Source: an uncultured Ectothiorhodospiraceae bacterium
Lineage (GTDB): Bacteria; Pseudomonadota; Gammaproteobacteria; UBA9214
Direction: 5' to 3'
DNA length: 37,447 nt
Assembly: GCA_947258515.1 (NCBI GenBank)
Contig: CAMYIO010000009.1
Coordinates: 1 to 37,447 of the forward strand
Positions 22,917-37,447 of the stretch are shown piece by piece; position 1 is the stretch's first letter, and each line of letters opens with the position of its first letter. A program made the position numbers and the translations under genes. The notes beneath the pieces were generated by a model. It was given only the letters and a program-made list of their open reading frames with translations, ran no database searches and was not told the DNA's origin.

Positions 22917-24185
22917 TCAACCGGGCTCATCGACAGGCCCGCAGTTGCCTTTGTATGCAATCACCAAATCCATGACATTAGTGCCGGTCGGACCTGTCTG
23001 AAACAGATCGTCGCAGGCCGCCAGATAGCTGCCTGAATCCGCCTGCAGCAAGCTGCAGTCTGCATCAAAGCCCTTCGCTTGCCCGCGTTCGAGGGTGCTG
23101 CTGTCAACAATGGCGCCAGTATAGTCAGTCGGGCCATCTGTACCATCCGTGCCGGCAGCCAGAATCACGATGTCTGCATGTACGGCCAGGACCAGCGCGG
23201 CAGACAATGCCAGGTGCTGGTTCCTGCCCCCTGATCCGGTCACCGCCGGCAAGCTCACCGTTGTTTCGCCGCCCCAGAGGTAGAGTCCATCCGGCAAGCT
23301 CTCCAGTTGTAACGCGATGGTCTGCCCGGCAAGCCGTGCATCGCCGGCCAGTGGCTCCTGCATGACTGTCACAGCGTAACCTCGTGTCCTGCCCCTGTCT
23401 GCAGCCGCCTGCAGTGCCATTTTGTTCGTTGCAATAATGTGGTGATGGACCGTGTCGGGCAAGAACCTTTCAGGGACCGGGCGCGATGCTGGTCGTCGCA
23501 GCCATTCGGGCAAGCTGGCCGTTAGCGGTAAGCGTTCACCCGGCACCAGCAATCCGGAACCGATTGTACCCGGATCATCCCCGGGCACATCGGAAATCAG
23601 CAACACGGTTGCCGGCCGTCCCTTTACATGGTCGAGCAATCCCCCGCCCTTGATCAGTGACAGTGTTTGCCGCACGTGGTTGATCTCATCAATGGGTAAG
23701 CCACTGCCTATCAGCCACTGATTGGCACGCACCAGCTGCTGCAGCTGCAGATCATCGGGCAACACCTCGACCAGGCTCGAGCAGCCGCCCGATATCAGCA
23801 ACAGCAGTTCGCTAGTCTCAGCCGTGGTTTCGATGAACTGACAGAGTGCGTCCCCGGCCAGCAGACTGTCATCATTCGGTAGCGGGTGCCCGGATTCGAG
23901 GCAGCGGAGACGTGGATTTTGCTGCAGTTGCGCGTCACCGTGGCCGCCTTTGGTTATGACCAGGCCACCGACGACCTGTTTGCCCAAAACCTCCAGGGCG
24001 CCGCGTGTCATTGCGCTGGCGGCCTTGCCCACTGCGACCAGGGAAACGGGCTGTCGCGGCGGGTTACGCGACAGGTAATCTGTCACGCAGCGCTGGCCGT
24101 GTACGGCCGCGAGGCCGGCCTGGTAGAGTTCGTAGACAAGCCGGCGTGCGGCTGTCCGGGTTGCCTGCGTCATGGAGTTGTTCAC
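22917..24185 (-). CDS. Glycerate 2-kinase family protein (DUF4147/MOFRL)
   Basis: Predicted to phosphorylate glycerate to 2-phosphoglycerate in the cytoplasm, as in the TtuD/GckA family, feeding glycerate from tartronate or serine pathways into glycolysis. The 422 residues contain the N-terminal DUF4147 landmarks VAVGKAASAM (near 50), ESGHPLPNDDS (near 96), LLLLISGGCSSLVE (near 127) and the ISDVPGDDPGTIGSG segment (near 200). The C-terminal MOFRL part has GGETTVSLP, GGRNQHLALSAAL and ILAAGTDGTDGPTD. The start shown is GTG 24185; ATG 24173 is an alternative, and neither has a clear ribosome-binding site. It lies 20 bp after metZ in the same direction. The substrate is inferred from the family only; no glycerate pathway gene is nearby. 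Confidence 0.85.
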   Translation of the reverse strand: MNNSMTQATRTAARRLVYELYQAGLAAVHGQRCVTDYLSRNPPRQPVSLVAVGKAASAMTRGALEVLGKQVVGGLVITKGGHGDAQLQQNPRLRCLESGHPLPNDDSLLAGDALCQFIETTAETSELLLLISGGCSSLVEVLPDDLQLQQLVRANQWLIGSGLPIDEINHVRQTLSLIKGGGLLDHVKGRPATVLLISDVPGDDPGTIGSGLLVPGERLPLTASLPEWLRRPASRPVPERFLPDTVHHHIIATNKMALQAAADRGRTRGYAVTVMQEPLAGDARLAGQTIALQLESLPDGLYLWGGETTVSLPAVTGSGGRNQHLALSAALVLAVHADIVILAAGTDGTDGPTDYTGAIVDSSTLERGQAKGFDADCSLLQADSGSYLAACDDLFQTGPTGTNVMDLVIAYKGNCGPVDEPG

Positions 24186-33456: not shown

Positions 33457-34236
33457 TCAGCCAAAGACCGGCAATCGGGTGCCAGATGGTACCGCAAAAT
33501 GATCGGGGTAGCGGACTTTTACCAGGTATAAACCCGCGGGTGAGGCATTGATCCCGCTCACACGCCGGTCTTTTGCCTGCAACACATCACTGGTCCAATC
33601 GGGCGTTTGTTCACCACAACCGGTTTTTATCAGCACACCGGCGATGCAGCGCACCATGTGATGAAGGAAGGCATTGGCAATCACATCAATGGTGATAAAG
33701 CGGCCACTGCGCCTGACTTCAAGCGAGTGTATGGTGCGTACCGGACTGTGTGCCTGGCAGGCGACAGCGCGAAACGAGGTAAAATCGTGTTCACCCACCA
33801 GGTAACGCCCTGCATCGGCCATGATGCCTGCATCCAGTTCTGCATGGTGCCAGCAGACATGGTTTCTTAACAGTGCCGGCCGGCAGGGATGATTGTAAAT
33901 GATGTAGCGATAATGCCTCTGCGTCGCGCTGAAACGCGCATGAAAGGCCTCATCCATGCTGCTCAGCCAGCGCACGCTGATATCGTCAGGCAAGTTGGCA
34001 TTGGTTCCCCGTAGCCAGTTGTTGGTCGGCCGGTTTGTCCCGGTGTTGAAGTGAATGACCTGCCCGGTTGCATGAACGCCGCTATCGGTTCGTCCCGCGC
34101 AGACCACATTGAGCGCGTGGTCAGCCACCTTTGAAATGGCCTTTTCCACACAAGCCTGCACCGTGCGGCCCTCGGCCTGGCGTTGCCAGCCAAAAAAACC
34201 GCAACCGTCATATTCAATACCTGCAGCATAGCGCAT
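33457..34236 (-). CDS. truA: tRNA pseudouridine(38-40) synthase TruA
   Basis: Converts uridines 38-40 in the anticodon arm of many tRNAs to pseudouridine. From ATG 34236 it is 259 residues and starts RYAAGIEYDGCGFFGWQRQ, where family homology begins. The catalytic aspartate is Asp51 in CAGRTDSGVHATGQV. Later landmarks are FHARFSATQRHYRYII and FLHHMVRCIAGVLI. The frame is open upstream to 34317; several TruA proteins carry about ten extra residues, and no good ribosome-binding site marks either start, so the true start may be upstream. Between the EcfT-like gene and trpF. Confidence 0.94.
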   Translation of the reverse strand: MRYAAGIEYDGCGFFGWQRQAEGRTVQACVEKAISKVADHALNVVCAGRTDSGVHATGQVIHFNTGTNRPTNNWLRGTNANLPDDISVRWLSSMDEAFHARFSATQRHYRYIIYNHPCRPALLRNHVCWHHAELDAGIMADAGRYLVGEHDFTSFRAVACQAHSPVRTIHSLEVRRSGRFITIDVIANAFLHHMVRCIAGVLIKTGCGEQTPDWTSDVLQAKDRRVSGINASPAGLYLVKVRYPDHFAVPSGTRLPVFG

Positions 34237-34306: not shown

Positions 34307-34984
34307 TCAAACAGCAATGAAGATCACGCCACTCATCGCCAGCGGAAACATCCATTGCCACCAGGGCGGTGACGCCAGTTCATTGACATCGATCAGGGTG
34401 TCACCTGCATGAGCGGCCTTGTCGAGTACATTTTTGTAGAGTAGCCGCGATGACAGGGCGATATTGGTGAATTTCCTGGTAGTTACCGGATGCTCACGCA
34501 ATACGTCGCTGGCAAGTGATTGTACCTGCGTCACTGCCTCTATCGACAACAGCACCCGAACAGCAATGCGTTCGCGCATACGATGCGTGCTTAGCGGCCG
34601 GATCAGTTGCATGATCGCCGGCAGCAATTCTTCACGTGGAGTGCTCTGCAATAACAGGTGAACGGCGGCGACGATCGCGAGTAACGCCATTACCCGCAGC
34701 AAGCCAAGATAAAGACCATCTATTGTCGGTGACAGGGACGCCGCGCCCGGCCACAGACTGTCACCCGGTGTCCACCAGCCATAAACAAGCAGAATGGCCA
34801 GTAACAACCAGCGCAGTCGTTTAACCATGAGTAAAAAAGTCGCCGGTGAAGGATTTCCGGCCAGAACAAATAACAACAACAGTAGTACAGCACCGCCTGC
34901 CAGAAGTTCAGGCCGGGCCGTAGCCATGGCTGCAGTAAACAGCAGCAGCATGACAAGGCGTATCAGCGGGTGCAGGTCAGGCAA
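34307..34984 (-). CDS. CbiQ/EcfT-like membrane protein without partner ATPases
   Basis: A 225-residue membrane protein resembling the T component (EcfT/CbiQ) of energy-coupling-factor vitamin/metal importers. It starts LHPLIRLVMLLLFTAA and has hydrophobic segments at about 8-42, 50-70 and 90-112, followed by a long cytoplasmic-looking helical part with basic patches (STHRMRERIAVRV), then a last segment near 205-225. The EcfT coupling signature with Ala-Arg-Gly is not clearly present, and no EcfA or substrate-binding S component is visible nearby, so its transport role is doubtful. The start is TTG 34984, overlapping the fimV stop by 8 bp, so translation is probably coupled to fimV. The family call is moderate. 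Confidence 0.65.
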   Translation of the reverse strand: MPDLHPLIRLVMLLLFTAAMATARPELLAGGAVLLLLLFVLAGNPSPATFLLMVKRLRWLLLAILLVYGWWTPGDSLWPGAASLSPTIDGLYLGLLRVMALLAIVAAVHLLLQSTPREELLPAIMQLIRPLSTHRMRERIAVRVLLSIEAVTQVQSLASDVLREHPVTTRKFTNIALSSRLLYKNVLDKAAHAGDTLIDVNELASPPWWQWMFPLAMSGVIFIAV

Positions 34985-37094
34985 GTTTTGATATTAATGT
35001 TTCAGCTTCGTTCTTCTGCTCGTCGTTGCCCTCTTCCAGCACCTCACCGAGGATGCTACGCGCACCTTCAGGATCACCCATATCCAGGTAAGCACGGGCA
35101 AGATCGAGCTTCGTCGTGACTTCGTCTGAGGTACTCAGCAGCCCTTCCGATGCTTCTTCCTCATCAAAAGCAGCTTCAGCATCGGCTGTGTCAATTGCCT
35201 CGTCCATTGTATACTCGATACTTTCAGGCAGCTCTGGTTCCGGGCTGTCGTCCATGGCATCACCAGGATGATCCTGCGGACCTTCCATTTCGTGAAGGCC
35301 TGTGTCGTGATCGCTATGGGGATCGGCAGTATGAATCGCTGCAGCACGATACAGCTCATTGCCCGGCGACATGGCATACCCCATTGAAGCCACCTGCATC
35401 CAGGCGGCATCCTCTTCTGTGACACCCTCGCGAAAATCACTGGCTTCACGGTCAAATGCAGCCATATTTCCGGCAGCATGGTAGACCTCAAGCAGCTTCA
35501 GGCGGATGGCGCTATCCCCCGGTGAGCTGGCCAATGCAGCCTGCAATACGTCCTCAGCCTGCTGGATCCTTCCATAGGCGAGGTACACATCAGCCTCGGT
35601 CAAGGGGTCACTTTCATTGTTGGCCGGTTCGGAACCAGCCTGAGCCGGCTGTTCCGGTTCCGTATCATGCTCGTCAAAAACAGGGGGTGTCCGCTCTTGC
35701 CGGGAGCCGGTTGCCGCGTTGGCCATGCGACCTTCCAGTGTCACCTCATCATCAAAGATATCCGTGTGGTTCCTTTTCCGTGTTGAGGTCCAGAGAAAAC
35801 CACCGAGCAACATCGCGACCAGTACGCCGAGGCCGGCGAGCAGCGGATTATCCATCAACTGGTTGACGATTCCTCTGGGTTCATCCGCCGCTTTATCCAT
35901 GACAGGCGCATCTTCGTCAACAGTCTCTGTTGCAGTCGCCTCGGCCAGCCGGGTTTCATCCAGGGTTTCCTGTGCCGCCTCTTCAGGCGCTGTCTCGCCG
36001 GCTGCGACGGCCTCGTTGTCGATGCCGTCCGAAAGACGTTGTTGTATGCTGGCGAGCGCTTCATCCTTCAGTTCCAGCAGGCGTTTCATGGTTTCAACCT
36101 GGTCTTCCAGTTCAGTTACCTGCGACTGGTATTCCGCCGACCGGGCCTTGCTGGTTTCCGCCTCTTCTGTTGCCAGTGCAAGCTGTTGATTCAGTATCCC
36201 GGTGTTGGGTTCTCCGCTGTCACCTGTCGCCTCAACCGGGTCGCCAGACGTGGCGGTACCGTCTGCGGCGCCGATCTCAGGGGCCATCAGCTGCAAGCGC
36301 GATTCTGTGGTCACTGCTTTTTCAGGGGCGGCGTCGGTTTCAGCGACTGGCGTCGTTTCCTGCAGTGGCTCGGCGGGTTGGATGCCCTCCTTCCATTCAG
36401 CATACTGGCGCTGGGTTTCCGCATAGGCCGCCGAGGCCCTAAGCGACTGTATCTCACTCCGTGAGGGGATCTTCAGGGTTGCACCGGCATTGAGTTTGTT
36501 AATATTGTTGTCTGCGAAGGCCTGTGGATTTTCCCTCTGTAATGCCAGCATCATCTGGTGCATCGATATGTCGCTACCCGGACGGAGCTTTTCGGCAATC
36601 GACCACAAGGTCTCATTGCGCCTGATTGCTCCATAGCTGTCAGCGGATACAGACGTTACTGGTGCTGCTGTACGAACCGCTGCCGATGCCGGCCGGCTTG
36701 CGCCGCGGTACTGTGGCTGAACAACCGCCGGGGCGGCAGGCACACGGCTGACGGGGGTGGCGGGCCTGGCAGGCGCTACCGGCATGGTGACAGGCGGATC
36801 TACCAGCACGGTGTATTGACGTAACAGGTGCCCGTTTGGCCATGTGAGTTCAAGCAGGAACTCCAGGAACGGCTCTTGAACGGCGCTGCGACTGGTGATT
36901 CTGACCACGGTATTGCCACGCTTGTCTGTTTCTATGCTGAAATCGAAGTCATTGAGAATTCTGGAGCGTGACAAGCCGATGCGCTGGTGGTCTGCCTGGG
37001 AGGCCAGGGTGACTGTCACCGTGGAAAGATCGGCAGCGGCTGCTGATGTCAAGTCAATGGATGCCTTCATCGGCTGGTTGAGGGCCGACTGCAT
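34977..37094 (-). CDS. fimV: FimV-family polar/pilus scaffold protein, lacking a visible signal peptide
   Basis: FimV is an inner-membrane peptidoglycan-binding hub protein required for type IV pilus function and polar localisation in Pseudomonas. Homology starts at once with SALNQPMKASIDL, then EPFLEFLLELTWPNGHLLRQYTVLVDPP (about 74-101), a proline-rich stretch (102-150), a LysM domain (about 154-210), a coiled coil (about 302-355), a membrane segment at about 417-436 followed by TSTRKR, a long acidic cytoplasmic region, tetratricopeptide-like helices (about 515-570) and the FimV C-terminal domain (about 658-705). Normal FimV has a signal peptide and LGLGEI before SALNQP. Here an in-frame stop lies about 60 bp upstream of ATG 37094 and the intervening codons are not hydrophobic. 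Either it is truncated or the region is wrong. Confidence 0.88.
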   Translation of the reverse strand: MQSALNQPMKASIDLTSAAAADLSTVTVTLASQADHQRIGLSRSRILNDFDFSIETDKRGNTVVRITSRSAVQEPFLEFLLELTWPNGHLLRQYTVLVDPPVTMPVAPARPATPVSRVPAAPAVVQPQYRGASRPASAAVRTAAPVTSVSADSYGAIRRNETLWSIAEKLRPGSDISMHQMMLALQRENPQAFADNNINKLNAGATLKIPSRSEIQSLRASAAYAETQRQYAEWKEGIQPAEPLQETTPVAETDAAPEKAVTTESRLQLMAPEIGAADGTATSGDPVEATGDSGEPNTGILNQQLALATEEAETSKARSAEYQSQVTELEDQVETMKRLLELKDEALASIQQRLSDGIDNEAVAAGETAPEEAAQETLDETRLAEATATETVDEDAPVMDKAADEPRGIVNQLMDNPLLAGLGVLVAMLLGGFLWTSTRKRNHTDIFDDEVTLEGRMANAATGSRQERTPPVFDEHDTEPEQPAQAGSEPANNESDPLTEADVYLAYGRIQQAEDVLQAALASSPGDSAIRLKLLEVYHAAGNMAAFDREASDFREGVTEEDAAWMQVASMGYAMSPGNELYRAAAIHTADPHSDHDTGLHEMEGPQDHPGDAMDDSPEPELPESIEYTMDEAIDTADAEAAFDEEEASEGLLSTSDEVTTKLDLARAYLDMGDPEGARSILGEVLEEGNDEQKNEAETLISKLA

Positions 37095-37210
37095 GTCAAT
37101 CGTACATGCCTGGATCCCCTTTTGTTGTCCTAGCCATAGATTACGAGTAATAAATTACAATCCTTGTGCGAGAGTACAGTACCGAAGTTGTCCTGGTGGC
37201 AGACTATATA

Positions 37211-37447
37211 TCAGAAATACTTTTCGACCAAAATTTCGGCAATCTGAATACTGTTGAGTGCAGCACCCTTGCGTACGTTATCGGCCACAACCCACAGATC
37301 TAAGCCCCGCGGGTGGGAAATATCTTCCCTGATTCGACCGACATAAACCGGGTCGTGGTTGGCACCTTCGGAAACGGCTGTCGGGTAACCACCATCCTTG
37401 CGTTCGTCCAGCACCACAACGCCGGGTGTTTTCTGCAGCAGGGCGGT
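37211..37447 (-). CDS. asd: Aspartate-semialdehyde dehydrogenase, C-terminal part
   Basis: Asd reduces aspartyl phosphate to the semialdehyde used for lysine, threonine, methionine and diaminopimelate. Only the last 78 residues are in the window; the frame is open to the right edge, where the 5' part continues. The segment PTAVSEGANHDPVYVGRIRE, then LDLWVVADNVRKGAALNSIQIAE, is the family's C-terminal signature. It lies upstream of fimV in the same direction, with 116 bp between them and no clear terminator. The asd-fimV-truA order agrees with Pseudomonas. Confidence 0.95.
   Translation of the reverse strand, partial: TALLQKTPGVVVLDERKDGGYPTAVSEGANHDPVYVGRIREDISHPRGLDLWVVADNVRKGAALNSIQIAEILVEKYF

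Follow-up and report, generated by a model that had tools for sequence, protein, structure and literature searches.

The window, a stretch of 37,447 nt that makes up the whole of contig C9 in the draft genome of an uncultured Ectothiorhodospiraceae bacterium, carries near one end a fimV gene that opens without codons for a signal peptide. Has the organism lost the export signal of its FimV, or has only the draft lost it? In excerpts of PMC12918733, the FimV of Pseudomonas putida is described as a polar organiser whose signal peptide comprises residues 1-24, whose LysM domain binds the cell wall, and whose Ig-like domain is needed for its placement. We consider it likely, at a probability of roughly 0.7, that the gene in the window is an ordinary FimV/HubP orthologue and that the missing signal codons are an assembly fault.

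A FimV orthologue with a lesion

The open reading frame and its domains are located as follows (window coordinates).

34977..37094, minus strand: fimV/hubP open reading frame remaining after the deletion; 705 aa, starts MQSALNQP
36792..37094, minus strand: FimV_N Ig-like domain, residues 1-101 (PF25800, E 1.4e-34)
36393..36614, minus strand: FimV_core/LysM region, residues 161-234 (TIGR03505, E 2.9e-26)
35790..35849, minus strand: membrane segment NPLLAGLGVLVAMLLGGFLW, residues 416-435, followed by TSTRKR (by eye from the sequence)
34983..35114, minus strand: FimV_Cterm domain, residues 661-704 (TIGR03504; the genome's contigs hold no other match)

FimV_N reaches 118.8 bits (cut-off 27), with residues 1-101 matching profile positions 8-108 of 108, while FimV_core scores 91.1 bits (curated cut-off 43.45) and FimV_Cterm 71.3 bits (curated cut-off 30.65). 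The profile search also places TPR_19 and TPR_14 above their cut-offs in the same protein. The original prediction had described a FimV homologue without a signal peptide or LGLG motif, in which homology sets in at the N-terminal end of the frame and a LysM domain is followed by a membrane segment about 415 residues in, and this description is borne out. The gene order asd-fimV-truA that goes with the FimV/HubP class is present, and the window is collinear with G003, the closest relative by fimV. In Pseudomonas, the neighbourhood is presumably asd-fimV-truA-trpF. By homology, the gene is an orthologue of the FimV/HubP polar landmark, for which a polar placement with a periplasmic N-terminus is predicted. 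As the signal peptide and LGLG motif of the class are missing here and present in all 20 same-family matches, we class the gene as an orthologue with a lesion and not as an intact member.

The deletion junction and the leaders of relatives

The asd stop codon and the ATG of the open reading frame (37094) are separated by 116 nt. As had been claimed, there is an in-frame stop about 60 bp upstream of this ATG, followed by 20 open codons (FITRNLWLGQQKGIQACTID), and the gap encodes no hydrophobic segment: across its three minus frames and the first 60 nt of the open reading frame, no 11-residue stretch has a Kyte-Doolittle mean above 0.91. This rules out a leader in a different frame. The gap and the adjoining end of asd contain the following features.

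37211..37447, minus strand: 3′-end of asd, 78 codons, cut by the contig end (tblastn to G003 asd, 88% identity, residues 263-340)
37116..37123, minus strand: AAAAGGGG, Shine-Dalgarno-like, belonging to the original fimV start (genus relatives carry AAAGGGGAT or a variant in the same place before the signal peptide start)
37096..37107, minus strand: what is left of the original start, ATG TAC followed by the junction, read Met-Tyr-Asp-stop (103 nt from asd stop to ATG, as in G003)
37101..37102, minus strand: deletion junction, breakpoints uncertain by about 1 base (74-nt gap relative to G003, comprising leader codons 3-26 and part of codon 27)

Across residues 1-705, the FimV of the window shares 68% identity with that of G003 (locus L002) and 63% with that of G004 (locus L003). 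Both relatives have the same gene order, and both carry a 29-codon leader with a signal peptide and LGLGxI, whereas the window has 13 nt in its place. The distance from the original signal peptide ATG to the ATG of MQSALNQP is thus 13 nt as against 87 nt in G003, and direct alignment gives the same 74-nt loss, which falls between signal peptide codon 2 and the LGLGxID motif. The Shine-Dalgarno sequence and the first two signal peptide codons are retained at the spacing from asd seen in G003. The old start at 37107 now yields Met-Tyr-Asp-stop, and a single base separates this stop codon from the ATG at 37094. An RNA structure at the junction was considered and rejected, with a z of -0.55. The AAAAGGGG run had been put forward as a possible indel site; it lies at 37123-37116, one base from where it had been placed, and is equivalent to the Shine-Dalgarno sequence of relatives, in which the same stretch is kept, so it is ruled out as the site of an indel.

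The asd-fimV region was compared with relatives in the genus (12 other genomes, 11 of them with a fimV match; G006, 82% complete, had none) and in the family (22 other genomes, 20 with a match; none in G006 or in G021, which is 64% complete). In every match, 11 of 11 in the genus and 20 of 20 in the family, the fimV coding sequence follows on in frame from a start codon, a hydrophobic core, and then LGLG or IGLG. The maximum 11-residue Kyte-Doolittle mean of the leader ranges from 2.04 to 3.21 in 19 same-family loci; in the twentieth, L019, the best match starts farther into the protein and the leader was judged by eye. Nine more distant loci also have a leader with LG.G. From ATG to ATG, 9 of the 11 genus relatives have a leader of 87 nt and the other two one of 84 nt (L010 by eye), and a loss of 74 nt shifts the frame whichever length is taken. 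The original prediction held that a relative with a signal peptide in the same gap would show the truncation to be artefactual. Such relatives exist, but by themselves they show no more than that, of the genomes sampled, the window genome alone has the loss.

The same junction could potentially be explained by a real and very recent 74-bp deletion that inactivated fimV, leaving a normal start that gives three residues. It is clean and both of its flanks are conserved, and according to the excerpted text of PMC12918733, FimV/HubP has yet to be found essential in any species. Any FimV made from the ATG at 37094 would then be cytosolic, so that polar anchoring and twitching would suffer. We regard this account as possible but rather unlikely. 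The retention of other pilus genes, which the original prediction had proposed to look for in the genome, speaks against it: PilB scores above its cut-off, and two PilQ pieces lie on two contigs, each below the cut-off alone.

Other losses in the same draft

Open reading frames of at least 100 aa in G003 (724 in 61 contig stretches, 794 kb) were compared with the window genome, and 195 of them could be paired with a counterpart in 42 stretches (875 kb of 3.59 Mb). Seven internal gaps of at least 25 nt were found in the window genome. Three are in frame (48, 54, and 132 nt) and four out of frame (74, 76, 77, and 232 nt). The 74-nt gap is that of fimV. The 76-nt gap lies in an MFS transporter gene on contig C14, near 33605-33630, which is intact in G003 and G004. 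The 77-nt gap splits a gene for a Proton_antipo_M protein (an antiporter subunit) into two frames on contig C42 (L170, near 15570), and the 232-nt gap likewise splits a gene on contig C39 (L167, near 5145). In the reverse comparison, six gaps turned up among 192 pairs, of which three were out of frame (31, 44, and 50 nt). None of these three survived inspection: they were traced to a longer open reading frame start on a hybrid asd, to a query whose end lies beyond the region of homology, and to Ns in the window genome. Runs of N number six (17-72 nt) in the 875 kb of the window draft as against none in the 794 kb of G003, which suggests scaffolding, although such runs may instead be masked sequence.

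These losses suggest a systematic fault of the draft. Small as the sample is, a technical cause accounts better than three mutations would for clean losses of 74-77 nt in three unrelated genes. The 76- and 77-nt losses strengthen the case for an assembly fault; they also count against a real deletion in fimV. Three similar sizes among 42 stretches may nevertheless be a coincidence. It further speaks against a fault of assembly that, of the 50 genes from G003 contig C161, all but the MFS transporter (49) can be read in one frame on C9 or C14, so errors are not everywhere in the draft; this one-frame test failed to flag the loss in fimV or the hybrid asd on C14. The original prediction had offered decay, sequence error, and unusual membrane insertion as explanations. 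Sequence error is the best supported of them, given 74 nt lost out of frame within signal peptide codons and 76 and 77 nt lost elsewhere, while nothing positive was found for unusual membrane insertion. If the assembly is at fault, as we infer, the 74 nt would have been dropped from the draft only, like several comparable pieces, and the FimV encoded by the organism itself would keep its signal. It would normally be exported by means of this signal peptide, which would make its Ig-like and LysM domains periplasmic.

The neighbouring contig

C14 (3.6-38.7 kb) and, in reverse orientation, C9 (12-37.4 kb) adjoin each other on G003 contig C161, the boundary falling within asd, and the order in G004 is identical. 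The fimV junction is about 345 nt from the contig end, and about 110 nt of the native asd are absent from both C14 and C9. At its own end, C14 contains the following.

L033 3612-7525 (G000:C14:37611-41524): hybrid asd, then a divergent, frameshifted fimV', running off the contig end

The C14 asd is an in-frame hybrid, genus-like to about residue 226 (93% identity to G003) and then continuing into a divergent tail, which shares at most 68% identity over at least 76 residues with the compared loci and 81% with one 27-residue end of L066. The fimV' gene that follows has its own signal peptide and shares 36% identity with the FimV of the window in two stretches. Such an arrangement could result from real gene exchange, in which an incoming asd-fimV' recombined into asd and fimV', with its signal peptide, replaced a native fimV that then decays. 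The in-frame hybrid followed by a gene with a signal peptide is what this account would predict. Several observations make it very unlikely: fimV' is itself frameshifted (near L033:5980-6000, by eye), the top-scoring match to it in a search of 274 genomes, its own aside, is 38% identical (short stretches reach 48% among the matches listed), and its C-terminus was not found in a profile search of the genome's contigs. The bin holds one FimV C-terminus and one truA, both on C9. The end of C14 is probably a mis-join into the asd-fimV of another bacterium. The state of this contig and the closeness of the fimV junction to a contig end both favour an assembly fault. An intact second fimV allele was not found in the bin, which counts against an assembly fault.

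Elsewhere in the window, a 422-aa open reading frame (22917-24185, minus strand), a putative glycerate 2-kinase gene, has no nucleotide match to G003 between collinear flanks.

Constraint on fimV

Relative to G003, fimV has a dN/dS of 0.175, a rough ratio as dS is 1.19; the values for ten neighbouring genes are 0.030-0.223. With G004 as the third sequence, fimV shows 50 unique amino-acid changes in the window and 50 in G003. By region, the counts for the window and G003 are 10 and 5 in the N-terminal domain, 0 and 1 in residues 406-440, and 1 and 4 at the C-terminus. Neither dN/dS nor the unique-change counts thus give any sign of relaxed selection across the whole gene, and the gene looks, from these comparisons, to have been under constraint until very recently or to be so still. 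The unrelaxed constraint speaks against a real deletion, although the small excess in the N-terminal domain may be in its favour, and it also speaks against the decay of a native fimV after gene exchange.

An intact and constrained frame would also be expected if a FimV without a signal peptide were made and used. The three-codon mini-ORF would feed reinitiation at the ATG at 37094, one base from its stop, and the protein would work in the cytosol or insert by way of its membrane segment, the basic residues beyond which would favour a cytosolic C-terminus. FimV without its signal, if translated, would come from reinitiation at 37094. This ATG is no evidence for reinitiation, because all 11 genus relatives with a match encode an internal Met at this position. 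Some 415 residues would need to pass the membrane with no signal to direct them, the arrangement is seen in none of the 20 family relatives, the LysM and Ig-like domains are described as periplasmic in P. putida (PMC12918733, excerpts), and the similar losses elsewhere in the draft indicate a technical cause. We therefore hold this use of the protein to be highly improbable, and we give still less credence to its stricter form, a natural strain whose FimV lacks the export signal, is still made by stop-restart coupling, and acts from the cytosolic side only.

Implications and comparison with known systems

With an assembly fault as the preferred reading, the locus is foremost a caution, as the draft in which a conserved gene seems to have lost its export signal also lacks pieces of nearly equal size from other genes. 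Gene losses inferred from this draft, in which the adjoining contig is probably mis-joined, call for comparison with reads. A real loss would provide a natural test of FimV working without cell-wall anchoring, and a signal-less FimV in use would separate its role as a cytosolic hub from that anchoring. A FimV without a signal peptide is predicted to fail, and should fail, to reach the periplasm. None is mentioned in the titles and abstract beginnings of the literature searched.

The FimV of the window and that of P. putida are alike in having an Ig-like domain, a LysM region, one membrane segment, an acidic region, TPR, and a C-terminal domain, and they differ in the signal peptide, which P. 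putida FimV has at residues 1-24 and the window FimV lacks (PMC12918733, excerpts). The HubP proteins of Vibrio and Shewanella are, by their description in the same excerpts, polar landmarks with LysM, a membrane segment, an acidic region, and C-terminal TPR, as in the window, but without the Ig-like domain that the window FimV retains (PMC12918733).
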